A stretch of 64,000 nt of DNA from NCBI GenBank assembly GCA_021234155.1, contig JAJEKV010000011.1, forward strand, positions 8,231,132 to 8,295,131, written 5' to 3'. The notes below the pieces were generated by a model. That model was not told where the DNA came from. It ran no database searches and saw only the letters and a list, made by a program, of their open reading frames with translations. The first letter of the stretch is position 1, and every line of letters begins with the position of its first letter. The position numbers and the translations under genes are program-made. Of this stretch, positions 1 through 37,060 are shown piece after piece. This DNA is from Isoetes taiwanensis. Taxonomy: Eukaryota; Streptophyta; Lycopodiopsida; Isoetales; Isoetaceae.

Positions 1-2891
1 GATTCTTGTTTTCCACATAGCATCTGGACAGATCCGGCTTCCTCCTTTTTTCGGCTTGCCTCCTCCTGTATCAAACCGCCGCCCTTCGCTTGTTGGAAGC
101 CCCTGCCCACTGGCGGGCCACGCGGACAAAGGGGGCCATCTGCCGGCTAGATCCGGTGGCCCAGGTCTAACCCAGGCCCGCCCCACGCCAGCCCGTTCAC
201 CCTCCCGAGGTGGCATCCCCGATTTAAGGGGTGCTCACCTTTTCCACCCCCATGGTTTTTATATACCATTATCTAATTTGCTACACATTGCCTGGTTAAC
301 TCCTTGGCGGGACGTCGATCTTAACCCCATCCGCTTATTTTCAACCCAAGTAACCCGGCCACGTTCTACCCTAGTCTACCAGAGGTTGCTTCTGCACCGG
401 AATTTAGTTGGAACACGGTCTTGCCTCATACTAACCGGCTAATCTTTGCCCCCATAAGATGTACTGGTATTGATTTTTCTTTACAGGGCGCCCTAGGTCC
501 TCGGGCATACATTTGTGGTTTTATGGTCCTAGTTCCTTACTCATCCAGGTAATTTCATGTCGGCTTATTGTTCTGCTTTCGTTATTCTTTTTATTTGTGA
601 CTATTTCATGTTTTGATGCTAACCTTTGTTACAATGTTCTTCTCCAATTATGCTGCTAGGGTATATGCTAGGGTTTTTACAATTTGGTTACACAGTTTTC
701 GCCGTATTCTGGGGTTTTCCATTTCCACAGTTTGTTATTTAGTTTTTAATGTTGAGACTTACAATGTTAGGAGCAGCCATATTTTGGTTTCACGTTCATC
801 GTTTTTTGAAAGGTTGTTAAATGCTGCTTGTTTGATACCTTAGCGAGCGAGTTCTGCTATTTGCAGTTTTCTAGTTGCATTTGGCTTTGTTGATGAATTT
901 CGCTACTAACACTATGTCACTATGTTTTCATTTTTATTTGGCATATCCCTTCCCCTTTTTACTTTATGTTCGGGGATCATGTATGTGAATTGGATTAGGG
1001 GTGTTCCATTCTCGATTTTCGCTATTTCCTTCCTTTATCCACCTTCACTTGGGTGTCCTTTTGTTTTCTCGATGTTGTTTCTTCATATGTTCACATTCCA
1101 AGTCATGTATATCTTGAATTCCATTTCTTCATCTCTACTTATGCTTGCATTTGCCTTTTCTAAGCATTATCTCTTGGTGCACTTGATCATGGTCTTGAGT
1201 TTTTGTGTCCGGCGTCTTATCATTCACATTTTTGCTTATTGGAATCCGTCGATTCTATTCGCTACTTGGCATTTCCAAGTATTCATGTGACCCCTTTCTA
1301 TTTGAGCCTCTTCTGCTTCTCTCACGTTGATCTTCTATTTTGCAACCCTTTGTTTCCCAACCCATGCATCGTTATTTCAGGCCACACGTATGGCCCTAGC
1401 TTTATTTATACTACGTCTCCGTCATTGTATTTTCATTTGTCCTTTTCTCCTATATGGCTCACCCCTTGCACTCCACCCTGACCTAGGCACTCGGACCCCA
1501 TCTTCTCCGTTTCCTTGGCCATAATCTCACCTTTGACTACTTAAGTCTCATTTTTGCTCGATTTCCTGTGTTTCACCTTAACCTCATCTCCATTTCCATC
1601 TTAACTTTGCTCTTGTGCACCCTCGCTCTCTTATTCTTGTTCCAAACCATTGCTCAGCTCTTATGACTCTCTTTGCTAGGGGCAACCCAGTCCTATTTGG
1701 CACCTTGTAGTCCGCCTTTGACATTCTTCTCTTTGCCATGTTTTTTTGCACTTTGTCCTGTTTGCATTTGAGCGCTCTTTTACAACTTATTTATCCTTTG
1801 AAGCATATTCCCCTCATTGGGTTTAGACTTCATGTCGTAATTTCATGTCGCTCGTGCTCCATGATTGCTTGATTTCCCTTCTGTCCCCTTGCCGATGCTT
1901 GCCTCTTGCCATTTAGACTGCTGGACTTCAGACGTTGGTATACTTTGTTTTTGTTCTCTGGTTTAGGGCATATTTTTAAGTCAGTCCTTATGCATTTGAC
2001 ATCTTGAAAATGGAATTGGAGGTTACATTGGAATTGTTTTTTGGGCAAATTGCATTTACGACATTGTTGGGTCTCTTATCTGTGTCCTTATTCACACCTG
2101 GTGTCTAGTTTCCTATTGGGTTTTTGTATTTTGGCGATGTTCCTTCATGTAACCTATTTTGCTAGACGGCAAATTTCTACTTATCACGGTTTTTTCTTCC
2201 ACCCGCTGGGTGACGCTTTTTTCTCCACCTTCTGGGTGATGCTATCTTTTCTTTTTCATGTATTGTGGATTTTCCTCAGTGCTAATCGCTCACATCGCTT
2301 TGAGTGCTCGTTGTTGTGCAGCTTGCCGCTTCCCCGTCATGCACATTCGTCCGGCCTTATCCTTAGGCGTTCTTTTATATTTTACATTTCAACAGACGTT
2401 CTTCTTTTCTAACATGTTCCTTCCGCTAGTCCTTGTCTTTTTGGTTCTTTTATCATGTCCCTCGTGTTTTTTGCTTGGGTATTTCAGACCCTCCATATGG
2501 CCCTAGCTTTATTTATAATCCGTCACTTTACCTAGTCATTGTATTTTCATTTATCCCTCTCTACACCCTCTTTACCATTAACCTTAATCTTCATTTCTGA
2601 TTCATCTTAGTTGGCTCGATTTATGTTGATTTACATTAACCTTCACCGTTATTTTTCCTCTTAACCTTGCTCATGTTTGTTCTAACATGTCTACAACCTC
2701 TTTCATATCCGTTCCTTCTTTTGCGTTATAATAGCAGACCATATGTGTGGCTAGCTTTAGTACTGATATGTCGCGGGGTTCCACATGATGCAGCTCGAGC
2801 TCACGGCCGCTGGCGATCCTCTTCTTCTCACTCTCGCTGAGTGCTTCGTGACCCGACATGTAGCTCTTTATGTTTTTCGTTGTCAATTTGA
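1..2891. other. T-rich left part of the YR element, no gene recognised
   Basis: No recognisable protein is encoded here on either strand. The stretch is T-rich on the plus strand and carries repeated pieces: the direct repeat at 1389 and 2497, repeated 'ccttaacct' phrases near 1575, 2580 and 2640, and two isolated hairpin units (CACCC-gct-GGGTG type) at about 2199-2243, of the kind arrayed at 4.2 kb. A 71-codon minus-strand frame (2671-2886) and a 128-codon plus-strand frame (56-442) are open, but I could not link either to a family. Confidence 0.4.
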
Positions 2892-3880
2892 TTGAATTTG
2901 ATATGGTTTATAGGTTGTTGTGTGGCAGCTGCCTCTCGATTACTTGCTCCTCAGGAGGTCCCTTTGTTCCTCTCGACTTTGCTTTTGGTGTTTTCCGCCC
3001 GCGCCCCCTCTACTCTTACGACTTACATGGCTTTGTTCCGCTGTTTTGTTGTTGGGTGTCGCCTCCATCTCCCAGCTTCCCCCTTTGTTGTTGCCGCCTT
3101 TTTTGCCACTCTTCATTATTCTCATCTGTCGCCCTCGTCCATTACTTCGGCCTTTCCTGCAATGTCCTTTTTTTCATCAAGTTTTCAACCTGCCCTCCCC
3201 CGCTGTTCTTCCTTTACCATCCTTGGCTCGTCAGTCTACTTCTCGTGGAGCTCGTCCCCCTCGCACCTTGCTTCCCCTCATGCCTCAACATGTTCGCTCT
3301 ATTGTTCTCCATTTGCGCCACCCGCGGCCCCGTCCCCTTCTTTGGCCCGTGCTGCCCTCATCGTCCTTTCTTTTGCCGCTTTTTTACGCATCTCTGAGGC
3401 TCTCGCTCTTAACTGGCGTGATCTTTCTTTTTCGTTATCTCATGTTGACATTTTTATCCGCCGTTCCAAACGCGATCAACTTGCCCGCAGTCATACGGTT
3501 TCTTTAGCCCGTTTGACCTCGCTCGCATGCCCCGTCCCTATTCTTCAACGTTTGATCTCCACCGGTTCTTACCATCTCCTCGATCCTCCGACAGGCGGGC
3601 CTCTTTTTCGCTCCTCCCCCTCTTCTTTGCGCCCTTTATCCTATTCGACTGCCCGCTTATGGTGGAGGGATTACCTTTTGGCTATAGGCTTGGACCCGTC
3701 TCTTTATGGTACGCGATGCGCTTTGTCGGAGGCGGCGGGTTTGCACGATTTCGCCAGCGGGGTTCTACGACGCATTTCGTGCTCCACGCCCATTGGCGTT
3801 CCTCGTCTTCTCACTCGCTGTTCGTGCTTTGTGACCCGTCTCAAAGATTCGGAGGTGTCGCGCGGCGGTTGGGCTTGTAG
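2892..3880 (+). pseudogene. Tyrosine recombinase (phage-integrase fold), frameshifted
   Basis: This gene would encode a site-specific tyrosine recombinase that integrates the element through a circular DNA intermediate. The N-terminal part (to about 3330) looks like a SAM-like core-binding domain (STLTTYMALFR, SPSSITSAF). The catalytic part begins near 3340, with 'FAAFLRISEALALNWRDL' carrying the first catalytic Arg (codon 3387-3389), then 'RRSKRDQ'. Past about 3705 the family-like reading jumps frame: the position of the HxxR box reads 'MRFVGGGGFARF', then 'HAHWRSSSSHSLFVL'. The His/Trp box is kept (CAT at 3791), but the catalytic Tyr position reads Phe (TTC near 3821). Another frame switch lies between about 3190 and 3340. 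The frameshifts and missing Tyr make an active product unlikely. The start is nominal because no clear initiator context decides it. Confidence 0.7.
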
Positions 3881-3900
3881 TTAGGAAGTTCTCACGGTAG

Positions 3901-3940
3901 TCGGCCGGTTTTGTGTCTATTGCAGTCCCTTCCTGTAATC
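3901..3940 (+). repeat. Bracketing direct repeat, internal copy
   Basis: This 40-bp stretch begins 'tcggccggttttgtgtctat' and matches 4866-4906 at nearly every base (one inserted G, a few changes near the right end). Degenerate versions occur inverted near 21,857 and 23,203, 29,219 and 30,251, and 36,340 and 37,016, each pair bracketing a YR tail. This fits the split-direct-repeat layout known from Ngaro/PAT-type YR elements, but that is inference. Confidence 0.7.
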
Positions 3941-3988
3941 GCGATCGATCCGAGCCACCGGATCGCCATTCTGGGGAGGGACGAGCCA

Positions 3989-3998
3989 CTATATAAGG
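3989..3998 (+). promoter_or_regulatory. TATA-box-like promoter element
   Basis: The sequence 'ctatataagg' is a canonical plant-type TATA box. It lies just inside the internal direct repeat and about 100 bp past the recombinase stop, in a GC-richer stretch with C/T-rich sequence about 20-30 bp downstream. It could start a transcript running through the hairpin array, or reflect the internal position of the promoter in a split-repeat element. The sequence alone does not show that it is used. Confidence 0.35.
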
Positions 3999-4179
3999 CT
4001 CTTTCCCCTTCAGCACCGGTTATCGGCGTCTTCTCACATCAGCTTCATTCCTTCTCCGAGCTTCCCTCCCTTCCTGCCTTGCTCAGAGGGACACGTCTGT
4101 TTCATGTTGTTCACTTTGCATTTACTATAATAATGTTTTTTGCGTCACTATCATGTCATCTGTCATATGTTGTTTTTAT

Positions 4180-4380
4180 TTCCACCTTGAAGGTGATGCT
4201 ATTTATTTCCACCTTGAGGGTGATGCTATTTTTTTCCACCTTGAGGGTGATGCTATTTTTTTCCACCTTGAGGGTGATGCTATTTTTTCCACCTTGAGGG
4301 TGATGCTATTTATTTCCACCTTGAGGGTGTCGCATACTTAATTTCCACCCGCTGGGTGATGCTTTTTCACCTTCTGGGTG
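4180..4380 (+). repeat. Hairpin minisatellite (about eight units of ~26 bp)
   Basis: Tandem units read 'ttccaccttgagggtgatgc' plus a T-rich spacer. Six are of the TTGAG/TTGAA type, followed by units with CACCC-gct-GGGTG and CACC-ttct-GGGTG. Each unit can fold into a small hairpin with a 4-5 bp stem (CACC/GGTG or CACCC/GGGTG) and a 3-5 nt loop. The same array occurs inverted at 22,450-23,003, 29,654-30,060 and 36,729-36,775. Confidence 0.85.
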
Positions 4381-4680
4381 CTGATTTTATGTTCTAATTT
4401 GCTCTTCTTTGCAGGGGTTGATTGTGCGGCTTGCCTTGTCCATGCCATGCATGTTAGTTCCTTCTAACCATTTACGGGTATTTTTTGGGTTCTTTTGAGC
4501 TGCTGCAGGTTTTTTGCGGTCGTTTGGGGGTCCTGCTTTTTCGACTCCGCCATCGACATGTCTCCTTCGTCTCTCCGGCGTCCGCCATTGGGGTCGTGCT
4601 ATTTTTGGGTTCGCCGTCCCTTCATCTTCTTCGGTTTTCCAGGCATCACATTCAAGGTTGTTGGCGACCATTTCTCATTA

Positions 4681-4724
4681 GGGTTTTCCTCGAAAACCCG
4701 AAAGGGCGGGGTTTTTTATCCCGG
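4681..4724 (+). other. Double-hairpin motif of the YR tail
   Basis: The first hairpin is GGGTTTTC-CTC-GAAAACCC, a perfect 8-bp stem with a 3-nt loop (4681-4699). The second has a CGGG/CCCG stem around a T-rich loop (4707-4723). The pair recurs inverted at 22,053-22,087, 36,547-36,588 and, unexpectedly, in the 3' region of LINE-B at 46,008-46,053. Confidence 0.65.
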
Positions 4725-4865
4725 TGAGAAGTTGTCGCCATTACCCTTCTATGTTGCCTGTGCACATTTCTTTTTATGGGGTAGTTCGATATTGTTCCTA
4801 TGGTCGGCTACCCCTCTCTATTCTTCAAACCATTGTATACTGCTGCTGTGATGAATGACAAGCCA

Positions 4866-4906
4866 TCGGCCGGTTTTGTGTCTATTGCGAGTCCCTTCCC
4901 AGAATC
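4866..4906 (+). repeat. Bracketing direct repeat, terminal copy
   Basis: This is the second copy of the 40-bp repeat at 3901-3940. Past it the sequence becomes ordinary A/T-rich DNA with no further match to the inverted tails, so it probably marks the right terminus of the YR element. Confidence 0.6.
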
Positions 4907-7900
4907 AAAACATTTGTTGATATATTGCATTTATCAACATTCCAATAACTCTTGCAGAACCCATAATCCAAATGCCAACATCGTGCATGTCTAGCCATGA
5001 CTTTGGATAAAATCAAATGGACAAATGCCGAGCATATCTAACCATGAATTATATCGACATAGGATGGATTATACAAATATAAAATCGAAGGCATGGCGAG
5101 TAGATATTTTTCCAAAACCTAGGTTGAAAGTATGCCAATGTTATCTTGCATTTTGAATTTTCGTCTATATGCTAATAAATTTATATCCAATTGTATGCCA
5201 ATAACATTGCCCATAGATACTAGTGTACACCATAAGGTTTTTCAAAACATTGGAATAGAATTCATTTTGATTATTTCATATGCAATGAAATATAGAGCCA
5301 TCCAAATGTTTATCAAAGATCAATTTTCGTTTTTCTAATAGCTATTGAACTCAACGTTCCTTGAGAACAACACAACTTCATCATGCCTAAATCATGTCTT
5401 ATGCAATTGGCATTATAGTATTTTGGCTCCAAATACATTGCAACATATCGAGAATCCAAAATATCTCAATAGTCTACTTTACATAAGATCCGCTTCAGTG
5501 TATCTCACTAAGCTGTTTTGGTGAAATGTCGACTTAGAACAATAACTAAAAGGTTGAAAAGATATTCGCAATTACTATCCTTGCATAGTGTGGCCAATGT
5601 ATAGTAAAGTCTAACTGCAACAATTACAACGTCTTAGTAGGAAAAAGGAACCGAGGATGTTCTTGCTTCCAAGCCCTATTTATCAAACATCGATTACCCT
5701 CATAATCTTCTAGAATTTAAAGATACTTGGAAAGGTAATTTGAGCTACCAAGATAAAGAATAGATATGAAAATCAATCTGTAGTTTAAGTTCGTGCTTTA
5801 AGAAAGTAGCGTGTAATGGGAAAATAATAAAAGGATGGATCGACCAAAAGTCAACTATTGTAGTCTTTGGCAATTCAATAATGACAGTATTTTATCTGGT
5901 TATTTGTTGTTGTTCTCTATTGTAGTACCTCAAAAAGTATGGTTTCCTCGTATGAAACAATGGTGATAATATCTAAAGCTCTGCATACATCTGCCATACT
6001 GGTTGTTAATAAATGGTGCTAATGTCTAAAGCCCTGCATACATCTGCCATACTGGTTGTTAAAGATATACTAATTCAAGACTTCAACAAACCTACCAACT
6101 GCAGCATTCAATCCCTGTCTCCTGGGATGCCATTTCCAAAGTAACTATTCTTGATATTATGCTAGCATATAACTCTACCCATTTGCTCGCCTGGAGTAAA
6201 AGACATAAATTGTTTGAGATGAAAAGAATTAGAAGCAACGTATACTTGCCTTTTAAGCTTACCATTTGTACAACATTTTCAACTATCTCTGTTAGCAGTA
6301 GCTACTATTTGGGCACTGGGAAGACTATCAGCTGGAACAACTGGGATGAAGGTTTGCCCATTTTTTTGTTCCTTCCTACAGATCAAGCATTCCATCAAAT
6401 GTTTAACTACAACACAAAATACAAAACCAACATAAATCGATAACCCTAAACCCATTTTTTATATCATGAAGCATTGATTCACACACATCAGAACACTATT
6501 TGCCCATCATTTCCAGTGGCCAGATCCAGGGATAAAAAATGCCTTTGTGTTGAAAATGTTTCGCTTGACCGTCTGATGAAAGAGCAACGATGCATGACAC
6601 AATTGTTTTTGGACAATCCTCATATCTTTGAAGCTGTGACGATTCTTTAAATTGCACATAAACATGAAAGTGAAGGAAGCAAAGGAACCAACATTGAGAG
6701 TTCCTTTAGGCATGAATATTCGAGATCAGCATTGCATGTTTTCTGAGGCTATTCTAGGGTTATTGGAGTAAAACGAAGAGGCACCTTAAGTGCTATTACA
6801 TGTTGTGGTTTTCTTCTGCTTGCCTCCATTGTAAACCCCCTGAACAAACCTTGTTGCACGCTACATGTATTGGGGAATGAAGACCTGTGTAGCATGACGG
6901 TCCTATAGCAGCTGAAGCATTTAGATTGGAAAAGTCATGTACATTGCGTCCCTGTATTTGGTTTTGAAATCTCTGCATTTAGGTTGCCTGCATATTGTCC
7001 CATGATATAATAAGAAACCATCTTAATTTAAGTCAGTCATTATATATTCAGAAAATGTGCCTTTTGTTATTTGGCTACAGAGCAAGAAATGAGCAGTTTT
7101 CAAATTAAATAGTTAGATTTACTTGGCTCCTTCGTGGATTGAGCAGTATATAACCAGAGAGAAAACCTCTATTTGCCCCATTCTATCCTTGGTTGAAACT
7201 TTTTGGCATACACTATATAACGAACGTCTCTTAGGGCCTTTGAATGACCTTGTTCTGCCTCATGATCATCGAGAGGAAAATGCAACTGGAACTTTGCACC
7301 TAGATCATCCACAAAATGCTTATAATTGAAAACCTTATAAATAAGCAAGTAATGTTGCTTGGAAGGCGCCTTGCGAGCTTCCACTGTAATCTAAAGCTTG
7401 GCTGCCTCCACTGTCATCGCACCTTGTATTTGCTCCCAACTATGAATACAGGCAAGCCGAGGATGCGAAAGCCAAGGGCAAGCTGATGCCCTAACCCGTC
7501 TATTACAAAAACTGAACCCTAGCTCTAAACCGTTCGATCAATCCAGCCCTAGATCTAAGCCGTCCGATTTAGGGCGCGATGCATTACATACTTACATCAA
7601 AACCTTATAATATAAGATCGCGCCAAAAAGGAGGAGTGTGGCCATGGATGTGGCCAGAATGAAATTCAGTGTTTCTATACAGCTTTGGCTACGATTCCGA
7701 CCAGAAACACGTGTCTGAAGTGAAAGCTATTGGATTTTGCAACGAATTTGAGATTCTAAGAATTGATAGAATCAGATAGCCAGGTTACTGCAACTTATGC
7801 CTTTGTATTTTATTATTGAATATGTCATCGAATTTTAAATCCATCATTGCCTTCTGAATCCATCATTTTTGCTTCTTATCTATTTTTGTATTTCTCTTTC

Positions 7901-8389: not shown

Positions 8390-9337
8390 GTATTTGGAAG
8401 TGATACAACACATGGATATTGCATGCACCATTTAGCAGACAATTTCAGAAAAACTTTCAAAAGCACTCAACTAGGAATGTTGTGGAAAGCTGCATATACA
8501 ACTAATGCACAATTTTAATGCTCTCATTGGAGAAATACGAGCTTTAAATAGTACTGCGACTGATTGGATAATGAACACTGTTGACCCTTCACATTGGGCT
8601 ATATATAAGTTTTTAGGGAAAAGGTTTGGACATTTGACATCCCATATTGCTGAGTCCCTAAATGCATGGTTACTAGAGGCTAGAGATATGCCTATTCTAG
8701 TGATGTTGGAATTGATATGCCAGAAGGTGATGACATGTTTTAGGAAGGAAGGGAGGGAGGGAGGGAGGGAGGAAGGAAAAATTTTATCGTCCACAGAGAC
8801 CAATTGGCCGATGGGACCCAATGAAGCTATTAGGGATATGCTTGGGCCGGCATCATATAATGCATTGATTGGACATGCAGAGCAATCCATCAGAGGATCT
8901 TGTGAGAGGGGAAGACTATACCGCATTTTGCCATCTACTAATGTTGTCTTTGAAATCTATACTCCGGCGCGTCTTAGGCTTGTTGATGTGGATAAGAGGA
9001 CATGTGCATGTGGTAGGCATAAATATTTGGGCTTACCTTGTGCACATGCAGTAGTTGCCATTCTGTTTAGAAAAGAACATGTGCAACCTTATGCACACAT
9101 AGCATATTCATTGTGGTCTTATTACGACACTTACAAGGAGCCAGTAGTCCCTGTGGTTTTAGCGTACAATGATCTATTAGAGGCATGTTACCACCAGCCA
9201 CACACAGACCTCCTGAGCGACCAAAAACCAAATGTATACGCACAGGAGAAGCAGGTGTAGAGAAGAAAGAATAACATTGTGGAAGGTGTAATGGGAAGGG
9301 GCATAATGCTTGTAATTGTAGCGCTCTAATTCAGTGA
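8390..9337 (+). pseudogene. Mutator-like (MULE) transposase, C-terminal half, decayed
   Basis: This is the remains of a plant MULE transposase, the DDE-type nuclear enzyme that cuts and pastes Mutator-like elements. The frame starts with 'THGYCMHHLADNF' (about 8408-8446), the conserved segment before the last catalytic region. It shifts frame near 8500, then reads 'DPSHWAIYKFLGKRFGHLTS' and 'HIAESLNAWLLEARD'. A SWIM zinc finger (CACGRHKYLGLPCAH, about 9003-9049) follows. After the stop at 9258 a further frame shift uncovers a CCHC knuckle (C-x2-C-x4-H) at 9278-9319, ending at 9337. Between the helical region and the SWIM finger sits a foreign 80-bp insert (8743-8822) that happens to keep the frame open. 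The N-terminal DDE part is missing or too decayed to read. I found no MULE terminal inverted repeats. Confidence 0.8.
8743..8822 (-). mobile_element. 5'-truncated LINE-B tail inserted in the MULE
   Basis: A (ggaagg/ggga)n run is followed by 'ttttatcgtccacagagacc' and 'aattggccgatgggacccaa'. This matches 45,911-45,974, the 3' end of LINE-B, almost base for base, in the same orientation and also next to a ggaagg run. Read on the minus strand it is about 40 bp of element 3' end followed by a (ttcc)n-type tail, the usual form of a 5'-truncated LINE insertion. MULE coding sequence resumes directly after it. Confidence 0.75.
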
Positions 9338-19164: not shown

Positions 19165-21856
19165 CTATATTTGGCTAGATAAATTTTTCTTCTTGACCCC
19201 AATTTAAAAGATTTCTAGATTGGACTTTTTCTTCTTAATTTTCTTGTAAAAAATGCTAGAAACACGTTTAGGATTGTGAGGAGTATTCTAGAGCCATGAC
19301 ATCTAACCGGATATGTAGCTCTGCTTGCACCCAGCATCATTCATGAAAGATGGGAGCAACAAAACCGGTGAAGACACATGTTTTAGAGAGATCTCAAAGA
19401 GTACTAACTAGTCGCAGCGTCCCTCTAACTATCAATGATGAAAATCAACCCCCGTTACAGAAGGCTGCAATGCACAGCAAACAAAACCATGCGCAGCACA
19501 CTAAACCATCTTAAAACCATTATTTGAAAACCACTCTCTAGCATCAATATATCCATGAAATGTGCAGAAAGCCAAACATCTAGACCTGATCTCTGTGCTA
19601 CAAAATGGAACTGCAAGGCCATAGACTCCGCAATCTAAGGAATCAGATCTCAGCCAATCTAAGCACATCACCACGTCTGCTGCTGCCTCAACTACTGCAC
19701 ACTTTGAATAACCACATAGAGTAAGTTTATCCCTCGAGTTCGTACACATCCTGATACCAGGTTCTTGCTGCACCAGATAAATTAAGAGGGTCCATCCCCT
19801 CTGAACAAACCATATCCTTCAGCTGCACCAGATTATTAAGGTATTCTTAAACCATACATTGATACCAATAAATCACCTTTCCCCAAGAAAATGTATCATG
19901 AAAAGTAGAAGGCTGCATCATTGTATTTAAACACATAAACCATACCTTGCTTGACCAGATTGTTGCACTCCCAGTATTCCAATAAGAGGCCTCTGACCAA
20001 TCTAATTGATAACGATGCCTGCTTCTTGCTTCAATCTTCATCATATTTAAATAGCTTAAAGAACAGAGCATAATTTAACAATCCCTCAGCCATGTTCGTA
20101 TGCAGATGGTCTGAAAGTACAGTTATACGCTTTAAGTTTACATTTAGAGCCAGAACAAGGACATGCCATCTATACACGGACAAAAATGAAACATCTAGGG
20201 TTTCTGATTGTAATTATCCGCTTACAATATATATATATTCTCATATCTTTACTTTAGACCTTGATGTACAGCTTCCGTACTTAATTATAAGTCTTGCATC
20301 GTCTTTAGAACAGAAAAAACTGGTAAGCTCTTTAATATGGTTTTCTATCACGTTTACAATCTTACCGTTTATTGTTCAATCTGGGAGTCTTAAAAGTTGT
20401 TACACGAGCTTGTCTGCAAGCGACAAACGTTTAAAAGCTGGAAAAATATACAACAGAAAAGGTTATAGTGATGAAACGCCAGATCCCGCCAGATCTTGAA
20501 GCCAAACCGCCATATAATTACCTCAAGAAGATATGGTTATCAAGGGGCGTTTGATTGATGGCAGAAGAATAGAGAGCACGCACTCAGCTACAAAACAAAT
20601 TTAGATAAGTGAATGTGTTTCTATCTTCTGTCAACAGTCCTAATCACTCCAGTTCTTGGCTTTTCCTCCGAGCTTCAAGAACAAAAGAAGTTCTAAAACC
20701 ACAGATTTATAAGAAAACCAAGATAAACATCAGAACGTTAACAGATTTGGAACTTAGAAGGATATGGAAAAAAAGGACTAGTTCCGCATGGCAGCTGCCG
20801 GAGAAGAAGCTCTTCCACAATAAGAAAAGAAAGTCTGAACAGTCTGCCCTATATTTGACATATTTTACCAAAAAAGAAAAACTACTTACACATCCAGCTA
20901 CAGTGCCCCGTTACGTTATTATCATTTGGGAAGGGTCAAAAGACTACGGCAGATATCGCCTTATTGCCATAGCTCGGTACGTCCTGTACTTAACCTCGCT
21001 AACTCCGATGCCCAAGGACTATACCTTAACTTGTCGGTCGAAATGGAACCTAGTAGTCAAAATGTAGCTTCCATTATTAGAGGGAATGCCCGTACCCTCG
21101 GATTTTCTTAAGTTTATGGGAGCATTGGTATATTTGATACTTGATTCAGTCAATTGTTTTTACAAGACCATGGTGCATTGAATATTTTAGAGTTGCAAGA
21201 GCCGGGTTCACATGCACACAATCACCGAGAGAGGCCCCATTATACCTTGTGTAAATTAAAGATGGCGATGATAGTATGTGGTAAGGCATTTTACTACCAA
21301 ATGTGATGGTCAGTGATGGCGCTGCGGTGAACTCCTCGCAAAATTAAAGGGAGTGGTTTGAGGTGAACACCTTCAAATCAAAGTGTGCCCCAACCTTGTG
21401 CCTTTTAGACAACTAGTCTCAAACCACATTGAGCCCCTTTTTGTCTCAAGGATTTTATAACCTATTTACCAATCAAAAAGCCATCAAAATAAAACGCAAA
21501 TGACAAGACCCTAACCCCAGCACAAATCCAATCCAATCGAGTACAACCACCGCTTCTATGCATAAGAACCTAATTTGAAGGTACATATTCCAAATCAATA
21601 CTTTCTTCTCTTGATCAAGAGAAGAGCAATTATAAGCCATGACAATCTTTTCTCAGGTCCATCAAGAAGAATCTCATCTACGTTGTGTATGCCCCTTATA
21701 TATACACCTCCTCTTCCAAATTGACTATAGAAGCTAAGGCTCGCTCCCTCGTGAGTTTGGAGTTGAATCATGGCAACAATGCAGCTAATACAATGCTTCC
21801 ATTGCTCTATCCTGTTACATACAATAAGAATTTTGTTCTAAATGCTTCTCATTCTA

Positions 21857-23470
21857 GGAAGGGACTCTTGCAGTGCTTAAATACAAAACCTACCGTAGAT
21901 AGGCTTGTCATTCATATCATGTACAGCTAGTGATACAATGCATGGGTAAATTCAAATTCGGGAGTCAATTCATATAACAATGTCTAGCTACCCATAATGA
22001 AATAAGAAAATATGCAAAAGCAAAAAGAGAGGACAATGGCGACAACTTCTCACGGGATAAAAACCTTTTCTCGGCCAAGAAAACCCTAATGAGAAATGGT
22101 CGCTAATGGCCTCGAGGATGCCTTGAAGAGCAAGGTAGGAAATGGGTGAAGCCCAAATGCCCGTATCAATGCCATACGGATCAATGCTGGAAAAATGGAA
22201 TGTGTGAAAAGTCCCCGTTAAAAAAGGGAGAAATGCCTAAGAAAATAGTCCCGAGAAAGCAAAAAACCCATTAGTTAATAAAACAAACATATAGAAAAGA
22301 AAACCATGGTGGAAAAGAAAAATAGCACCCCTGGAAAAAAAAATACCTGCAGTGGAAATCCTTAAAGCAAAACACACTATTAGATAGATAGTATTTAAAA
22401 AAATTTGCATCCCAAATGGTTGGAAAAAACATATATAGAAATAGAAAAACATCACCGAGAGGTGGAAAAGAAAAATAGCATCACCAACAGTGGAAAGAAA
22501 ATAGCATCACCAATGTGTGGAAATCATCTAGCATCACCAACAGGTGGAAGTCATCTAGCATCACCCAAGGGGTGGAAAATATAGAGATAGCATCACCCAA
22601 ATGGGTGGAAAATAATTTGCATCACCCAATGGGTGGAAAACAAACATATATAGAAATAGAAAACATCACCGAGAGATGGAAAAGAAAAATAGCATCACCA
22701 ACAGTGGAAAAAGAAACTACAAAAAATAGCATCACCAATCTTTCTAAAAATTCACAATGTGGAAATCAAAATAAAACCTACGTTAGGGGCGTTTGGAAAT
22801 TTTCTAAAACATGAACCCAAAAGTTAGCCAACGGGTCCCAAAAAATATAGCATCACCAACAGAAATCATAGCATCACCATGGGTGGAAAATAATTTGCAT
22901 ATCCATAGGTGGAAATCATCCATCACCCAACGGGTGGAAAAAAGCATCACCCAATGGGTGAAAATAATTTGCATCAGCCATCAGTTGGAAAAGCATCACC
23001 CAAAACTTTGAATGAAACATATAAACAATAGACAAACTCAAAATAATATAGAAGGGCGGTAGGGTGGGAAGCAATGGACAAGAAAAAGATGCTGTGTGAG
23101 AAGACGCCGATAACGAGCCACAAGAAGGACGAAAGCACATGTATGAGTCATTATCCTATCCTGGTATATCAACGATCCGAGGGGCTCCGGACGATGCTAT
23201 TCGGGAAGGGACGCAAGAAGAACACAAAACCGCCGACTACCAGAGAACTTCCTTACCTACAAGCCCGGCATCGAAACGCATTTAAATGTCGAGCAACATC
23301 GCAAAAACTACATAGCCAGAGGGAGAGCATAAGGACCGCCATTTGCCGCGCGAGAGTGGAAAGAAGAGGAGCCGAAACAAAGATCATGTAGAACTCCCCG
23401 AGTCAAGAGGGCTCCGAGGCTGCCAAGTGAAGCGTAATGTGTACCATATTGGGATGGATCCAAGTCGATA
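21857..23470 (-). mobile_element. Inverted YR-element tail (in duplication copy 1)
   Basis: The terminal repeat lies near 21,857 ('ggaagggactc...'), the double hairpin at 22,053-22,087, the hairpin array at 22,450-23,003 and the internal repeat at about 23,203-23,246. Past that, on the minus strand, comes a remnant of the recombinase gene's last part, with 'tggatccatcccaatatggt' (23,441-23,465) corresponding to the 'GLDPSLYG' coding stretch of the plus-strand copy. Order and spacing match 3.4-4.9 kb read backwards. How much of 23.5-25 kb is also YR-derived I could not settle. Confidence 0.7.
22450..23003 (-). repeat. Hairpin minisatellite, inverted copy
   Basis: More than a dozen units of 'agcatcaccnnnggtggaaa' occur. 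Stems change together: CACC-gaga-GGTG, CACC-aaca-GGTG, CACCC-aag-GGGTG, CACCC-aaat-GGGTG, CACCC-aac-GGGTG. A few units have a broken stem (CACC-aac-AGTG). Spacers are A-rich and include 'aaacatatatagaaatagaa'. Confidence 0.85.
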
Positions 23471-26400
23471 GCAAGAAGACAAATAGAAACGAGGGATGAG
23501 GTAAAGTTAGAGGGAGGGATGAGGTAAAGTTAGAGGTGGCGTATATATGAGCGCAAAGTCAAAAAGACACTATAAAGAGGTACATAAGGAAATGGTCTGA
23601 ACAAGAATAGAGAGGAAGGTGAATATTAAGAGAGCCAAGGTCTGGTTAACTAGCAGAAGTTAGATTCACCTCATATTCTAAAAACAATATACATGTGCAA
23701 AAACATACCTTATGGAAAAGCCTCTAATGATCAAGTTAAAACCATCGCGAAAACCCATAAGTTAAAAAAGGTAAATGCTCGCAAGCATCATCCTAAAGAA
23801 ATTTCAAACCAATCGAAGCGAGACACATTAGAACAACCTCACAGGAAAACACTTTCATAAACAACTTAGGACCATGCAAAATGCCCTAAAAGTTAGGAAT
23901 AAATGCCCCAATCATGGAAACTCAAGCCACAAAATTCTAGTAGTTCTAATAATGGAGAAAACTCAATAGAATTGAGATGCAGAGAAAGCCAAGTAGCAAA
24001 CCACAAAATAGATAGCATGATGAGCCCGGATCCAAACTTCAATTCCTACAAATAGAACGAGGGACGAGGTTGAGGTTGAGGTAGAGGTCGCACAGGCGCA
24101 TAAAGTCAAGAGGAAGGTTAAGAACCCCGAACATAAGCCCAAGACTAAGAGTATGACGTAAGACAATGGACAAGGTCGAGTCGAGTGAGACTCATGTTAT
24201 AATTTAAATATCCGCCTATAGATGACCAACATATATAGGCACCCTAAAATGAAATAAGCAAAGATTTAGAGAAACAAGGGATGAGGGAGTAAAGTTAGAG
24301 GTGGTGTAAAAGAGGCTCAAGACGAGAGAATGAGAAGATGGCTATGGTCGCATGAAGAGTAAAATGGAGGCTCAGCTAAAGGTGTGCAAAGATAGGATAG
24401 AAAAACTCATTAGAGAAGGGCTCATACACGTAAAAAAACATTTGCAATTATGTTTTCTACCTCTCATTTAGCTCTGGCTACTTTTATGTCATCGTATATG
24501 GTTTCTACTGTAAGGCACACATGCTCACTGGACCTTCTGCATATAGATCCTGGCACTCCGTGAGTAAACTTTCACTCTTATGGTAAGCCACCGCTTCTAT
24601 CCTACACTCCTTTGATTGTTCATATATTCTAATTCCTTTATGCAGCTTGCATATATATTTGAAGTGAGATCATGTCCAAAGAGGCCCCGTATGGATTAAT
24701 GCCGCCATTAAGATATCTAGAAACGTGATGGCCTAATGCGAAACTAAGATGCTACGTGAATCCGCATTATCCAGCTTGGGGTTTTCTACGAGGTGGATAT
24801 GGAGAAGGATGGCAAAAACAAAGATTCTATGGGGTAAAAGCATGTTAGGGTGTCTTTAAAAGTATTATTTAGTGACCAAAAGGGGAAACGTGATCAAGTA
24901 CTAGGGCATAATATCTCAAATATAAGGCATGTTTTAGAACTTTTTATATACATAAGATGCCAATAGAATCGGCACTTTTATACCATGTCCTTGCTTTTAT
25001 TTTGATTTTGGTTTTAAATGAGGTGGATATGCTCAAGTACCTAGTGTATGATGGTTCCAAAAACAAGATTACCCTATGCCCCTCAATTCCATTTCCAAAA
25101 TATCAAATTTTAAATGACACCACCTAAGTAGCTTCCTTGCAAATGGGTTATTGTTCCATCATGATCCGTAATAACTCCTTTCTAATATGCATTACCTTCT
25201 ACGAATTTTGTTGGAAATATCCCATTCTAATGAGCCCAATGATGTTTTATTATTTGAACATCCAAGTTCAAGTATCATACTTTTTATCCGGACTAACCAT
25301 CAAATGTTATTGTACCACTAACCATTAAATGTTATTGGCACCATCAATAAGCATTACTCGCACGCAAAATCGGAACAGAAAGAATGCCAAGTTTGAAAGT
25401 TATTTTGAAAATACCCCGAAGCTTAAATAACTCATCTCCGGATCATTCCCGCATGGTCGGGAAAAAGGATTTCTACTCGATGTCCCGCATGGTCGGGAAA
25501 AGATTTCCAGATGGGGAACCTAAAATTGAGACAATGCCCCATATCTCATCTTAGGTGCTTTTAGATTTTTTTCACCAATTTTGAGCACTTATGCATATAC
25601 ATCGTGAGATACTGCGTGATGCTGCCACATGTATACATGCAGGTACCCATATGCTACTACACTCCAATCTTTCACAAGTCCGCATGAATTTGCCCTAGGT
25701 AAGGAAGAAGAAAACAGCAATACAAATGTAAAACATGGCACCTATAGTATTTTTGCATTTTTCTTTATCTAACAACTAAGTACAAACAAGATACCGCGTT
25801 TCTCAAGTAGGCAAAGCTATGGTCAACCAATTTGATTTTTTTCGCTTTTAATATATTCCCTTGCTTCTATTAGACCATTATGCATGCTATTATATTCGCT
25901 TTTTTGGTTTATTAGTTTAAAAAGCCAAGGCTAGAACAAGTATGAAAAGCTTTTAGAACCCTAATGTCAAGATTTTGAGAAAAGAACAAGTGATTCACAT
26001 GCTTGCCAAGGTGACAACAAGCCTAGAACAAGTTTTCTTTACTTCCATCAGAATTCAATTATTTGCACCTTTGGCCGGGGACCCGCGATTCCATGCTTAG
26101 TCTCCATCTATATGCAGAAAAGGCACAAGGTATGTTGCCCCTTATTTTGAAACCATATGTGAAAAATTAGTCACAACCACCGTATTGAGCCATAGCACAC
26201 GCGTATGGTGTTTACGCCACACATTGCACAATGGAAAATAATAGAGATTTTTATTGACTCTAAATCCTATATGGAAACATGTCTAGCAATTTTTCTTACC
26301 AATCTTCGTGTTATATTATGTAGACTTGGAGATAATGTAATGTTTCTTTATTCACCTATTTAGCCTTCTCAACTAGTATATTTATACCTTTTGTTGAAAA

Positions 26401-26606
26401 ATGTTAAGGTGCTACAGTGTTTAATCATAGTTGTTAAAATTCTTGCTCATCAATGGGATTAAGTTAAGTTAGAATGATAAGTAATCAGCTCAAGCTTATA
26501 AAAAATGCACTCATTAAGCTATGATTCATTCTTTGAAAAGCAACGCCAAAAGTCGCATCCTTGGCGAGGAGCATTATGTTGACTTGGGCATCGACGTGGT
26601 GAAACA

Positions 26607-29600
26607 CTATATTTGGCTAGATAAATTCTTTTCTTCTTTTGGACTTCAATTTAAAGATTTCTAGATTGGACTTTTCTTCTTAATTTTTCGTGTAAAAATG
26701 CTAGGAACGTTTAGGATTGTAGGGTATTCTAGAGCCATGACATCTAACCGGATATGTAGCTCTGCTTGCACCAACATCATTCATGAAAGATGATGGAACA
26801 ACAAAACCAGTGAAGACATGTTTTGAGAGATCTCAAAGGGGTACTGTGGTCAAGTTATCCCTCTAACTATAATGATGAAAATCAACCCCCGTTGCAAGAG
26901 CTGCAATGCACAGCAAGCTAAACCATGCGCAGCACCTCTAAAACCATCTTGCCATTATTTGAAAACCACTCTATCAATATATCATGAAATGTGCAGAAAA
27001 GGCCAAACATCTAGACCTGATCTCTGTGCTACAAATGGAACTGCAAGGCCATAGACTCAATCTAAGTAATCAGATCTCAAGCTAATCTAAGCACATACCA
27101 CGTCTTCTGCTGCCTCAACTTCTGCACACTTTTGAATAGCCACATAGAGTAAGTTTATCCCTCGAGTTCGTACACATCCTAATTACAAGGTTTCTTAAGC
27201 TGCATAGATAAATTAAGGGGTCCATCCCCTCTCTGAACAAACCATATCAGCCAGCTGCAGATTATTACAAGTATTCTTAAAACCATACATTGATACAATA
27301 AATCCACTTTCCCCAAAAGAAAATGTATCATAACAGAAAAGTAGAAGGCATCATTGTATTTAAACACATAAACCACACACCTTGCTTGACCAGTTGTTTG
27401 CACTCCCAGTATTCCAATAAGAGGCCTCTGGACCAACTAATTGATAATAACGATGCCTGCTTCTTGCTTCACTCTTCATATTTAAATGGCTTAAGAACAG
27501 AGCATAATTTTAACAATCCTCATGCATGTTCGTATGCGGATGGTTCTGAAAGTACGGTTATAAAGTACGCTTTGGTTTACATTTGGAGCCAGAACAAGGG
27601 ACATACCATCTATACACGGACAAAATGCTTGAAACATCTAGGGTTTCTGATTGTAGTATCCGCTTACAATATATATATATTCTCATATCTTTACTTTAGA
27701 CCTTGATCTTACAGCTCGTACTTAATTATAAGTCTTACATCGTCTTTAGAACAAGAAAAACTGGTAAGCTCTTTTTAATATGGTTTCTATCGTTTAAAAC
27801 TGAAATCTTACCGTTTATTGTTCAATTCGGAAGTCTTAAGGTTTGTTACACGCAAGCTTGTTAAACGTTAAAAGCTGGAAAAATATACAACAGAAAAGGT
27901 TATAGTGATGAAACTTTAGATCCATGAATCTTGAAGCCAAACCGCCATATAATTACTCAAGAAGATATGGTTGTCGGGGGCGCCGGATTGATGGCAGAAA
28001 ATAGAAGCACGCACACTCAGCTACAAAACAAATTTAGATAAATTGAATGTGCTCTATCTTCTGTCAACAGTCCACCACCAGTTCTTGGCTTTTCCTCCAG
28101 CTTCAAGAACAAAGAAGTTCTAAAACCACAGATTTATAAGAAAAACCAAGATAAACATCAGAACGTTAACAGATTTGGAACTTAGAAGGATATGGAAAAA
28201 AAAGGACTGGTTCCGCATGGCAGCCGCCGACTCCACAATAAGAAAGAAAGTCTGAACAGTCTGCCCTATATTTGACATATTTTACCAAAAAAAAAACTAC
28301 TTACATCCAGCTACAGTGCCCGTTACGTTATCATTTGGGAAGGTCAAAGACTGCGGCAGATATCGCCCATCGCCATAGCTCGGTACGTCCTGTGCTTAAC
28401 CTCGCTAACTCTGATGCCCAAGGACTATACCCTGCTTGGTCGGTCGAAATGGAACCTAGTAGTCAAATGTAGGCTTCCATTATTAGGGAATGCCCGTACC
28501 CTCGGATTTTCTTAAAGTTTATGGAGGCATTGGTATATTTGATACTTGATTCAGTCAATTGTTTTACAAGACCATGGTGCATTGAATATTTTAGAGCCGT
28601 AAGAGCGGTTCACATGCAATAATCACGGGAGAAGGCCTATTATGCCTTGTGCAAATTAAAGATGGCTAGGTGATGATAGGCATAGGGTAAGGCATTTTAC
28701 ACACAATGTGATGGAGCGTGATGGCGTGTGAACTTCGGCCTAAAGGTGGTTTGGAGGTGAACACTAGGCTGGCAGTCCGAACCTTGTGCCTTGAACAGCT
28801 AGTCTCAAACCACGTTGAGCCTTTTTGTCTGAAGGATTATAACTCTGTTACCAATCAAAAGCTATCAAAATAAAAGCATAATGTGAAGACCCTAACCAGG
28901 CAAATAAACAAATCCACTGAGCACAACCACCTGCATGCAGAGCGCAGATTTGAAGGTACATGTTCCAAATCAATACTTTCTTCTCTTGATCAAGAAGAGC
29001 AATTATAAACCATGACAATCTTTTTACGTGTCCATTGAAGAATCTCATCGTTGTGTATGCCCTTATAGATATACAATCTCCTCCTCTTCCAAATTGACTA
29101 TAGAAACTGGAAACAGTTCAAGTAGTTTGAGTTGAATCATGTGGCAACAATGCGACAATACAAGTTCAGTTGCTCTATCCCACATATACAATAAATTTTG
29201 TCCTAAATGCTTCCCATTCTAGGAAGGGACTATAAAAGAACACAAAACGGGCCGGGAAGGCTTGTCATTCATCCTGATAGTTATACACAATGTGTGGTAA
29301 AACGAATGGGGAGGGCGACCATAGGAATAATGTCTAGCTACCATAATACCAGAAATAAGAAAAAGGCAAAAGAGGACAATGGGACAACTTCTCATCGGGA
29401 TAAAAAGGAGCGAAAACCCCGAGAGGCCTATCTATATGAAGAACAAGGTAGGGAAGCGACTGTGAAGCCAGCCCAAATCTTATCAATGCCATGGAATGTG
29501 TGAAACCTGAAAAAAGGAGAAATGCCGGAGAAAGTACCGGATTAAATGTTAATAAAGAGGTACAACCATGGCGAGGGCCCTAAGAAAATAGTCCCAAGAA

Positions 29601-32600
29601 AACAAAACACCATTAGACGATTAGAAACATAAACAAACATATAGAAATAGAAAACATCCGAAGGTGGAAAGCGAAAAATAGCATCACCAGCGAGGTGGAA
29701 AAATAGCATCACCGGAGGGTGGAAATCATCTAGCATCACCAGCGGTGGAAGTCATCTAGCATCACCCAGGGGGTGGAAAAATGTAAGATAGCATCACCGT
29801 GCGATTGGAAAATAATTGCATCCTCATGTTTGAAAAACAAACATGTATAAAGAAATAAAAGTCATCAGAGATGGAAAAGAAAAATAGCATCACCGCGGAT
29901 GGAAAAAAATAGCATCACCAGCGGGTGGGAATCATCTGGGGTGGAAATCATCAACATCACTTAACAGGTGGGAAAAATATAACTAGCATTGCAATGGGTG
30001 GAAAAAATAATTTGCATCAATAATTTGCATCAGCCATCGGGTGGAAAAACAACACTCAATGGATTAGTCAGTACTGAACATAAACATATAAACAATAGAC
30101 GAACTCAAAATAATATAGAAGGGCGGGTGGGGTGGAAGCAATTGACAAAGAAAAGAATCTTGCTGTAGAAGGCAGAATATGAGCCACAGAAGGGCGAGCA
30201 CATATATAGCTACTTTAATTCCATCCAATAATCGAGGGGCTCCGGATGGTACTGTCTATGAGGAAGGGACTAAATGAAATACAAAAAGCAGGCCGACTAC
30301 GGGAGGCTTTAGCACCTGCAAGCCCAGGCCCAGAGGCGGGGCGTAGTGGAGGCAACGCCATGAGCCACATAGAGGAGGCATAAGGTGCCATTTGCGTGCG
30401 AGTGGAAAGAGGCTGGTCATGACGTAGCTATTAGAACTCCACAGAGCCGTGAGCATAGAACAGCGTGGCAGAATGTCATGCCATATTGGGATGGATCAAG
30501 CCCCGATAACAAGAAGACAAATAGAAGCGAGGGATTAAAGGAGGTAAAAAAAGTTAGAGGAGGGGTGGGAATTAAAGTTAGAGGTGGCGGACATATGAAG
30601 CAAGTCAAAGACCACGAGCAAAGAGGTACATAAGGTCTGGAACAAGAATAGGAAGTGGTGAATATTAAAGAGAGCCAAGGTCTGCTCCGGACTAGCGAGT
30701 TAGATTCACCTCATATTCTAAAACAATATACATGTGCAACATACCCTATGGAAAAACCTCTAATGAGTCAAGTTAAAACCCATAAGTTAAAAGGCAAATG
30801 CTTGCGCGTCATCCTAAAGGAAATTTCAAACCAATGAGCGACGCACATTAGAACAACCTCATAGGAAAATACTTTCATAAATAACTTGGGACCATGCAAA
30901 AGTGCACGAAAAGTTAGGAATCAATGCCCCAATCATGGAAACTCAAGCCACAAAAATTCGGTGGTTCTAATAATGGAAAAAACAGTAGAATTGAGATCAC
31001 GAGAGAAAGCCAAGTAGCAAACATAAAAATAGATGGCGATGGCGGACCAACCAATTCAAATAGAATGAGGGGCGAGTTGAGGTTGAAAGTAAATTCCATG
31101 AACAGAAGCGCCTAAAGAAATCAAAGAAGGAAGGTTAAGAAACCTCTCAAAGCGAAAACGGAAGGTATGGCCGGACAATGGACGGTGGTCGAGTGAGACT
31201 CATGTTATCACAGAAATATCATTACGCCATAGATGACCACATATAGGCACCCTAAAATGAAATAAGCGACATTTAGAAACAAAGGGATGAGGTAAAAGTT
31301 AGAGGTGTGCGGTGAGAAAGAAGCTCAAGGCGAGAGAATGAAGAGAAGATGGCTATGGTGCATGAAGAGTAAAATGGAGGTCTCGTCAAAGCGGTAAAGA
31401 ATAGGATAAAACTCATTAGAAGGGCCCATCTACGTAAAACATTTTGCAATTATGTTTTCACTCTCTCATTTAGCTCATTACTTTTATGTCCGGGTATATG
31501 GTTTTCTGCGAAGAAGGGCACACATGTCGATTGACCCGGACATATAGATGTGCACCGAACAAACTTTCAATTCTTATGGTAAGCCTTTGCTTCTATCCTA
31601 CACTTTTTGATTGTCTATATTCCTAATTCCTTTTTATGCAGCTTGCATATATATTTGAAAGTGAATCATGTCCAAAAGGCCCCAGATGGTTAATGTCGGC
31701 AAGATATCTAAGCGTTATGGCTCCATAAGCGAAAGATGCCAAGGTAGCATTTATCTGCTTTGGGGTTTTCCGTGGATGGATATGGAGAAGGATGGCAAAA
31801 ACAAAAGATTCTATGGGGTAAAAGCATGTTAGGGTGTCCCTTAAAAATATTATTTAGTGACAAAAAGGTACCTAAAAAGGTAGCCGGGGTACTAGGTACT
31901 AGGTACATAATATCTCAATATAAGGTATGTTTTAGAACTTTATATACATATTGGTCTCAATAGCATTATCTTTACTTAACAAGATATTACCATGTCCCTT
32001 GACTTTTATTTTGGATTTTGTATTAGTTTTAATGAAAGAAAAATGAAAGTACCCGATTCTGAAGTACCTAGTGTATGTACTTTTGCGGGTTCAAAGTAGG
32101 TACACCTAACATGCTTTTACCCTATGCCGCAATTCCATTTCCAAAATACCAGCTAAATGGCCTGCCGGTGCTTCCCTTGCGGCACGGCTGTTAGCCATCA
32201 TGATCGAATAACTCCTTCTAATATGCATTACCTTCCCCGATTTGTCATTGGAAACATCCCATTCCAATAGGCCACGATGTTTTATTATTTGAACATCCAA
32301 GTTTGGTTATCATACTCTTTTATCACGGACTAACCATCAAAATTATTGCAGCCACTAACCATTAAATGTTATTGCGGCCGAATAAGCGTACGGGCCAGGT
32401 GCGACATTGGAATGAAAGGAATGCCAAGTTTGAAAACTATTTTGAAAAATACCCGAGTTTAAACAACTCATCTGGATCATTCGAATGTTGGGAAAAAAAG
32501 TTTACAATTATGTCGGATGGTGGAAAAAGGATTTGCGGTATGTAAGCTAAGCTGTCAATACGACATATTCTCATCTTAGGTGTTTAGATTTTTCACCAAT

Positions 32601-33659
32601 TTTGAGCACTTCTGGGGCGGTATACATCGGAGATATCATGTGATGCTACACATGTATACATGAGAGAATTTTTCATATGCTACTACCAAGTAATCTTTCA
32701 CAGAGTCGCATGAATTTGCCCTAGGTGGTAGAAGAAAACAAACAATATGGAAATGTAAAAACATGGCGGACGACACTATAGTATTTTTTGCGTTTTTTGG
32801 ATTCGGTTTTACAAAGCACAACAAAGATATCATCGGTTCGCGGGGGTAAAGCTATAGTCAGCCGATTTTGATTTTTTTTTCTATTTTTAATATATTCCCT
32901 TGCTTCTATTAGACCATCAGTGCGTTATTATATTACATTTTAATTTGGTTTATTAGCTTGAAAAAGCCATAGCTAGAACAAGTCTGAAAAAGGCTTTAGA
33001 AACCTGGATATCAAGATTTTTGAGAAAAAGAACAAGTGATCTACATGGCGAGGTGACAACAAACCTAGGACAAGTTTCTTTACTCTTACTCGTAATTCAA
33101 TTATTTGCATCGCGGGGCGGTTCTTTGCATTCCATGCTTGAAGTCTACGATCTATATCACGAGGAAAAGGCACAAAGGTATGTTGCCCTCGGTGAGATGA
33201 AACCATATTTAAATTAGTCACAACCACACGGGTGATGAGCCATGGCAATGGCAATGGCGAGGATGGTGTTTCGTCACCACATTGCACAATGGGAAATAAT
33301 AGAGATTAATGGGCTCTAAACTTCATATGAAACATAATGCGCTAGCAATTTTCTTTACCAATCTTGAGGTTATATTATGTAGACTTGGAGATAATGTATT
33401 ACTCTTCTTTATTCGACCTATTTTTTTGTCTCTCAACTTGGTATTTCGTTTCTTTACATTTGGAATGTTAGGGTTATGAAAGGTTATCTCATAGGCAGAC
33501 AAATTCTTGCTCATCGAATGGGATTGGATTAAGCGAGGAATGATATAATCAGCTCAAGCTTATAAAAATCGGACCGATTAAGTTATGATTCCGTCTTTCG
33601 CGGGTTAATATACGAGTACGTATCCTTTGTTGGAGAGCATTATGTTGACTTGGGCATCG
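26607..33659. repeat. 7.4-kb segmental tandem duplication, copy 2 (7.05 kb)
   Basis: This is the second unit of the duplication, shorter by about 375 bp through many small deletions. It carries its own inverted YR tail (29.2-30.5 kb). It often differs from copy 1 by short insertions rich in G and C ('gcg', 'cgg', 'ccgg') where copy 1 has other short sequence. No intact gene was recognised. Confidence 0.9.
29219..30530 (-). mobile_element. Inverted YR-element tail (in duplication copy 2)
   Basis: Same layout as in copy 1: terminal repeat near 29,219, hairpin array at 29,654-30,060, internal repeat near 30,251-30,310, then a minus-strand recombinase remnant reading 'LSGLDPSQYG' (about 30,480-30,510). 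It arose with the duplication, so it is not an independent insertion. The double hairpin near 29,396 has lost part of its first stem. Confidence 0.65.
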
Positions 33660-36339: not shown

Positions 36340-37060
36340 TATTCTTGCTGCGACTCGCATGAAACCAACAAAATAGATAGGCTTCTCATTATCTCAGTAG
36401 ATTTGCTACAATGGTGGACAGTGGATAGCCACACACATGTGAACTATCCACAAAAAATAAAGGGAAAATCCAATTATATCATTTGGACCCCAAAACAAAT
36501 ACAATGCTAATAGATGAGTGGTCGATGTACTGCAGAAAGCTTATCAGGGATTAAAAAACCCGCCCTTCGGTTTTCGAGGAAAAACCCTAGTGATAACCCG
36601 GCAAGGGCTTAGACAAAGCGAGGGCATAGAATCGCTCTCAAAACCCGCCATGGAGAAGTCAAAATGGATGGCGCTCACCAGCCATGCACTGCACATCACC
36701 AACAACAAGCGAGAAACATACCAAAGAATAGCATCACCCAATGGGTGGAAAAAGCATCACCCACCGGTGGAAAAACATGATAAATGAGAACTTGTACAAA
36801 ATAGAATAAACAAAGAAGGGGAGGGGGTGGGTTCAAAGAGAATAAAATGGAGAGAAGAGGAAGCGCCGATGAAACGTCAATGAAGAATTCCAGAATAAGT
36901 AGCAAGCGCCCAACCCTGACGAGCGGCCCAAAACGGTCACGATGCATGCATCGCGGCGCATGACAATGCATGCATGCCTTTGAGTAAGAATGCCGATTCG
37001 CCACGCGAATCGGCGATATTTCTTGCACCGCGCATTCGCATGAAACCAACAAAGCGCCGA
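36340..37060 (-). mobile_element. Inverted YR-element tail, short third copy
   Basis: Bracketing repeats share 'cgcatgaaaccaacaaa' (near 36,356 and 37,038). Between them lie the double hairpin (36,547-36,588) and only two hairpin units (36,729-36,775: CACCC-aat-GGGTG and CACC-ACC-GGTG). The array is much shorter than in the other copies, so unit number varies between copies. This copy lies outside the 7.4-kb duplication and is therefore an independent instance of the module. Confidence 0.6.

Follow-up and report, generated by a model that had tools for sequence, protein, structure and literature searches.

Arrays of short palindromic sequences are known from the Sirevirus lineage of Ty1/copia retrotransposons, which carry 8-32 such boxes in their non-coding parts, as published in 2010 (PMC2829016). 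The A-coding-B-A-B layout of retrotransposons with a tyrosine recombinase (YR) has also been reported for SymbioDIRS (PMC5890265). According to a review from 2022, DIRS elements are among plants known only from green algae (PMC9033089). However, a fern assembly table includes 361 DIRS fragments (PMC6890710), and we therefore make no claim of a first report in land plants. Stem-loops in the 3' UTR are described for stringent-type LINEs (PMC4176376, PMC5135761). The preliminary description of the hairpin array studied here had considered such arrays in recombinase-type elements as not described, which is too strong given the palindromic arrays of the Sireviruses (PMC2829016).

The array is located in a 64,000-nucleotide stretch of the Isoetes taiwanensis genome, here called the window, which spans C919:8231132-8295131. 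A search of the whole assembly (1,658,258,908 bases, 1,110 contigs) with the pattern TTTCCACC-N3..8-GGTGATGC gave 4,934 matches (2431 + 2503), as compared to a single match (1 + 0) for the reversed-pattern control. On contigs C1-C70, 16 of the 58 clusters of units are located near an exact copy of two motifs from the focal family, and the other clusters are likely located in putative YR elements of other families, like the one at 36.7 kb in the window. Sequence was read from 60 loci of about 3.2-3.7 kb, of which L031-L060 were found with the YR protein.

The host element and its 3' tail

As judged from the sequence of the copies read, the host is a split-direct-repeat YR retrotransposon of the DIRS order, with its parts in the order RT-RH-YR-B1-A2-tail-B2 (Table 1). 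The translations contain the motifs RISEAL, HSARRGG, HGRW and RY, in agreement with the R..HxxR..H/W..Y signature of the YR proteins, and the Phage_integrase domain scores above the cut-off in the relatives L045, L050 and L053. A comparison of the YR with solved structures gave no match. Immediately 5' of the YR, a single ORF contains YMDDF and RNase H-like stretches, which places an RT/RNase H region upstream of the YR; the Pfam domains RVT_1 and RVT_3 are below the cut-off in these loci, where the RT is cut off by the locus end. At 1-4400, the YR element is strongly enriched in pyrimidines on its plus strand, including the coding part (AT skew -0.39 to -0.46, GC skew about -0.19).

Table 1. 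Positions of the hairpin arrays, the parts of the focal element and related features. Positions refer to the window unless a locus is given.
Feature	Position	Strand	Remarks
Two related hairpins of a third family	2186..2252	+	Adjoining YR-like remnants; counterpart in L058
YR ORF of the focal element	2892..3884	+	330 aa, C-terminus decayed; Phage_integrase E 5.6e-4, below cut-off
B1, first terminal-repeat copy	3902..3941	+	CGGCCGGTTTTGTGTCTATTGC..; aligned in 18 loci; second copy at 4867
A2, 3' promoter-like repeat copy	3944..4042	+	TATATAAGG at 3990 (TATA-like), GGTTATCGGCGTCTTCTC at 4018; conserved among loci
Amplified hairpin h2	4183..4329	+	Six units CACCTTGAGGGTG, the first being CACCTTGAAGGTG
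Hairpins h3 and h4	4346..4380	+	h3 CACCCGCTGGGTG (4346-4358), h4 CACCTTCTGGGTG (4368-4380); pair present in other families too
Stem-loop hp	4662..4740	+	79 nt, about 280 bp downstream of the array; fold z -5.1
Conserved tail end	4778..4863	+	GGGGTAGTTCGATATTG..TGATGAATGACAAGCC; ragged join to B2
B2, second terminal-repeat copy	4867..4905	+	Similarity between copies stops here
Decayed array, diverged copy of the focal element	22443..23003	-	Motifs at 23115, 23195, 23235, 22098
Decayed array, second half of a tandem duplication	29661..30052	-	B2 and tail end near 29254-29344
Two hairpins of a second YR-type family	36730..36775	-	Own hp at 36524-36608
LINE-like hp copy, L017	2415-2509	-	Covariance model
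LINE-like hp copy, L030	2889-2983	-	Covariance model
LINE-like hp copy, window	45982-46074	-	Covariance model

The repeats follow the A1...B1-A2...B2 layout, in which B1, A2 and B2 are seen in the sequence, while A1 is deduced from pairs of motifs on the same strand. Genome-wide, 16 listed pairs have a same-strand copy of GGTTATCGGCGTCTTCTC at a distance of 5-7.7 kb upstream. One of these pairs overlaps another in that its A1 is the A2 of the neighbour, and 15 were counted. The stem-loop hp, which served as a marker of the tail, is present behind A2 in 13 of these 15 pairs and behind A1 in none (p = 1.8e-6), and no strict unit was found behind the A1 copies on contigs C1-C70. That hp is located behind A2 but never behind A1 indicates that the array belongs to a tail that is present at the 3' side only. 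Thus, the placement of the array in the non-coding tail of a YR element, downstream of a TATA-like box, agrees with the preliminary description. The alternative that the array is part of a 5' leader behind A1 was rejected, since the tail is absent there.

The join between the tail and B2 is normally ragged by several bases, and in four loci (L036, L037, L040 and L059) B2 directly follows a tail that has been truncated at various positions. A missing or variably cut tail with a directly joined B2 was noted in these loci as well as in L052 and L055, the B2 of the latter being of another family's type. The copies end at B (..CCCAGAAT) and not at the hairpin units, which bears on the earlier proposal that the tyrosine recombinase of the element binds the units or uses them for crossover. 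The units do occur toward the 3' end of YR elements, but there is no strict unit behind A1 on contigs C1-C70, and arms of 4-5 bp are far below the 11-13 bp of well-studied YR sites. The length of the arms and the position of the junction make this proposal highly improbable, and it was set aside.

Conservation of the hairpin units

The tandem array at 4175-4367 has a period of 27, 7.1 copies and 88% matches, and one more unit extends it to 4380. The segment from 4183 to 4380 consists of eight CACC...GGTG units in a T-rich background with a period of 26-27 bp. As described earlier for units of about 26 bp, single units can fold into small hairpins, which are stable as RNA, with stems of 4-5 bp and energies of -5.3 to -7.0 kcal/mol. 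In the minimum-energy RNA fold calculated for the window array, base pairing is between neighbouring units, and a row of separate hairpins was consequently dropped as the predicted fold of this array. The fold of the single-copy tail of L053 is modestly better than those of shuffled sequences (z -1.8). In several families, the last hairpin is followed by a T-rich tract ending in TGCAG that resembles a 3' splice site (4380-4420; 70-110 bp past the last hairpin at other loci).

In sister subfamilies, the same stretch contains four or five hairpins that are single and differ from each other, h0-h4 (for example CACCTGCGGGTG, CACCTCGAGGGTG, CACCCGTTGGGTG and CACCCTATGGGTG), and homologous single hairpins are present in about 20 loci. 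Only in the focal subfamily has h2 been multiplied (L031, L032, L034, L036 and L051), to a variable copy number. The second family (36.7 kb in the window, and the minus strand of L060) has retained a pair similar to h3/h4 along with hp, but differs in the sequence from B1 to the hairpins, and the third family (2186 in the window, and L058) has retained the hairpin pair beside YR-like remnants. The conservation of the motif is thus real, as it has been kept across families in which the flanking sequences have diverged. The arms are far better conserved than the loops, which, together with the variable number of units, supports what had been noted from the window.

These data also bear on the possibility that the units represent a passive minisatellite, with functionless repeats merely carried along in a tail that is prone to slippage. 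Plant LTR retrotransposons are known to have hypervariable untranslated regions. Only one subfamily has amplified h2, to a variable copy number, the arrays in old copies decay with no excess of compensating changes, and for the extra copies this explanation is likely. However, it is weakened for the motif itself by single hairpins whose places are shared among sister subfamilies and between otherwise different families, and by arms that are much better conserved than loops. As an explanation for the units in general, we consider it improbable.

A few other arrangements were observed. In one subfamily, the hairpins precede the promoter motif by about 360-490 bp, and hp is only 240 bp past it (G000:C8:274562, C54:52392, C167:146733 and C168:583191). 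The second YR family contains a direct repeat (about 200 bp, 79%) at 36832-37398, which includes the palindrome GCCGATTCGCCACGCGAATCGGC. The two halves of a tandem duplication at 19165-33659 (about 7 kb, 74-80% identical) each have a decayed minus-strand array. The window also contains an ORF with a SWIM zinc finger, probably MULE/FAR1-like, at 8475-9260, and a LINE with RVT_1 at 54113-57412, with an A-run near 58261.

The preliminary description had suggested that the arms change together, such that CACCC is usually found with GGGTG, and CACC with GGTG. The focal array itself breaks this rule, as five of its eight units (CACCTTGAGGGTG) combine CACC with GGGTG, and the association is not significant over the 35 units of the window (Fisher p = 0.18). 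One-sided and two-sided changes were counted by pattern throughout the genome. At pair 2, we identified 4,934 A-T, 50 G.T and 14 A.C combinations, and no G-C (expected 0.14). The excess of G.T comes in part from one lineage (distinct units 22 versus 10, p = 0.05). At pair 3, there were 100 T.G, 101 C.A and 16 T-A combinations, and 3-5 of the latter resemble units (expected 2.0). The changes at this pair are symmetric between the strands, with no preference for G.U over A.C (100 versus 101). Compensating changes at pairs 2 and 3, by which the suggestion was to be judged according to its own terms, are therefore at chance level genome-wide.

Because most copies are dead and mutate neutrally, we also compared the subfamilies, and within each hairpin class the double changes were not above those in shuffled alignments. 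Among 37 distinct units of 13 bases, six double changes fall on the innermost pair and none on pairs 1-4. The covariation score of the innermost pair is 0.147, as compared to 0.079 in the shuffles, only one in 500 of which was as high, and structures shifted by one or two columns score about 60-70% of this value; there was no covariation at this pair in 100 listed genome units (Fisher p = 0.43). The 37-unit alignment was assembled by hand from the other loci and the window with the common flanks entered as TTTC and ATGC, and hence says nothing about the conservation of the flanks. The four outer pairs are thus nearly invariant with double changes at chance, the innermost pair covaries weakly, and the suggestion of jointly changing arms is for the most part incorrect. 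The CACCC/GGGTG rule refers to the innermost pair and is weak. Compensating changes were rejected as the main signature for the outer pairs, based on the genome-wide counts and the subfamily comparison. Of the broader claim that selection or copying keeps the fold and not just the sequence, the conservation stands, but it is the sequence CCACC/GGTGATGC that has been kept more than the fold.

The flank ATGC outside the hairpin is likewise conserved. The main rival explanation, which we consider rather unlikely, is that the units are double-stranded DNA boxes, with near-palindromic sites at which a dimeric transcription factor would bind to act on the nearby A2 promoter. Comparable boxes are the repeated palindromic ones of the Sireviruses and box I of Tnt1. 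The arms are conserved as sequence and not as fold, the changes at pair 3 are strand-symmetric, some units are perfect palindromes (for example CCACCATGGTGG), the units are located 140-400 bp from the TATA-like box, and a parallel has been published for the plant Sireviruses (PMC2829016). However, no tail follows A1, which is the copy expected to drive the full-length RNA, and the flanks of the units are asymmetric and their orientation is constant. The length of the spacer differs between the stable hairpin classes, being 4 or 5 bases. Finally, the innermost pair is U.G in all h0-h2 units, which pairs only in the sense RNA and as T.G spoils the palindrome in the DNA.

The stem-loop hp and a possible role of the tail

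The longer stem-loop hp differs from the units in that both sides of its stem have changed. Double changes are present in eight of its 15 outer pairs between families, and the covariation score was reached by no shuffle and no shift in an alignment of ten sequences, one of which was LINE-like (L017). The outer stems GGCGAC/GTCGCC and TTCTCAT/ATGAGAA have been rewritten on both sides to GCCGAA/TTCGGC and TTATCAC/GTGATAA, and TATTACT/AGTAATA is found in another family. The copy at 36.6 kb is decayed and no longer has a good fold. A covariance model also identifies hp near the 3' ends of LINE-like elements with tandem tails of TATTC or CTTC, the assignment of these neighbours to LINEs being based on the tandem 3' tails and a weak match to zf-RVT (E 0.38). 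A search of Rfam over 3850-4950 gave nothing above the gathering score, only a chance-level hit to PsrR1 (20.1 bits versus 42), and a known RNA family was rejected on these grounds.

Our preferred reading, to which we assign a probability of only about 0.4, is that the units are conserved short inverted-repeat motifs in a 3' UTR that may serve as RNA-binding sites, one of which (h2) has been locally amplified. The motif has the form YTCCACC-N3..6-GGTGATGC and is placed between A2 and B2. Three observations lead us to read the tail as the 3' UTR of the genomic RNA, namely its absence behind A1, the varying points at which it is cut in some copies with B2 attached, and its ragged join to B2. The genomic RNA would then start in A1 and end near GATGAATGACAAGCC, and the short hairpins, in a U-rich stretch 5' of hp, would be sequence-specific sites for a protein of the element or the host. 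Such a protein might function in packaging or in initiating reverse transcription. The minisatellite would represent extra copies of one such site, created by slippage, and the cut tails and ragged joins may reflect variable 3' ends of the RNA or variable priming points, after which B2 could have been regenerated from B1.

This reading is supported by the approximately 4,900 units, the tail at the 3' side only, the single hairpins that have been kept, the h3/h4-like pair with hp in the second family, the truncated tails and ragged joins to B2, the innermost U.G pair of h0-h2, and the stability of single units as RNA hairpins. Against it speak the outer arms that are kept as sequence, the conserved ATGC flank, the lack of preference for G.U over A.C at pair 3, the fold between units in the array, the modest fold of the L053 tail and the hairpins about 450 bp upstream of the promoter motif in one subfamily, and the ends of the RNA are themselves extrapolated from genomic DNA. 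An extension of this reading, which we regard as doubtful, is that reverse transcription uses the tail as a modular RNA platform, in which the row of CCACC hairpins is followed by the stem-loop common to the LINE-like elements, such that two unrelated classes of retrotransposons would have the same 3' signal. If true, a YR retrotransposon and LINE-like elements of one genome use one 3' signal. The 3' tail with its hairpins, the covarying stem-loop shared with LINE-like tails, and the ragged or shortened tails joined to B2 provide concrete candidate sites for how YR retrotransposons start reverse transcription and regenerate their split repeats.

Comparison with known systems

The units resemble the RM boxes of the Sireviruses in that both are arrays of short inverted repeats with a fixed core and free intervening bases, located in a non-coding 3' part near a TATA box (PMC2829016). 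However, the hosts differ, as the Sireviruses are Ty1/copia LTR elements with a DDE integrase, while the element described here encodes a YR with an RT-RH region on its 5' side. The boxes also differ in their core, which is CGG-CCG in the Sireviruses and CCACC-GGTG here, and in their position, upstream of the TATA box of the LTR and before the ENV gene in the Sireviruses, but only behind the 3' promoter copy here. With the stringent-type LINEs, the similarity is that LINE-like elements of this genome carry hp as a conserved stem-loop close to their 3' ends. The difference is that hp is here also present in a YR retrotransposon, and its recognition by a reverse transcriptase is putative.

With the split-direct-repeat YR retrotransposons of the PAT/Ngaro type, the element shares the RT-RH-YR order and the A1...B1-A2...B2 layout. 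It differs from these by the extra tail of 0.8-1.0 kb with hairpins and hp between A2 and B2, and by its vascular-plant host. The analysis thereby documents an abundant element of the DIRS order in a vascular plant, as opposed to the statement in the 2022 review that such elements had, among plants, been found only in green algae (PMC9033089).
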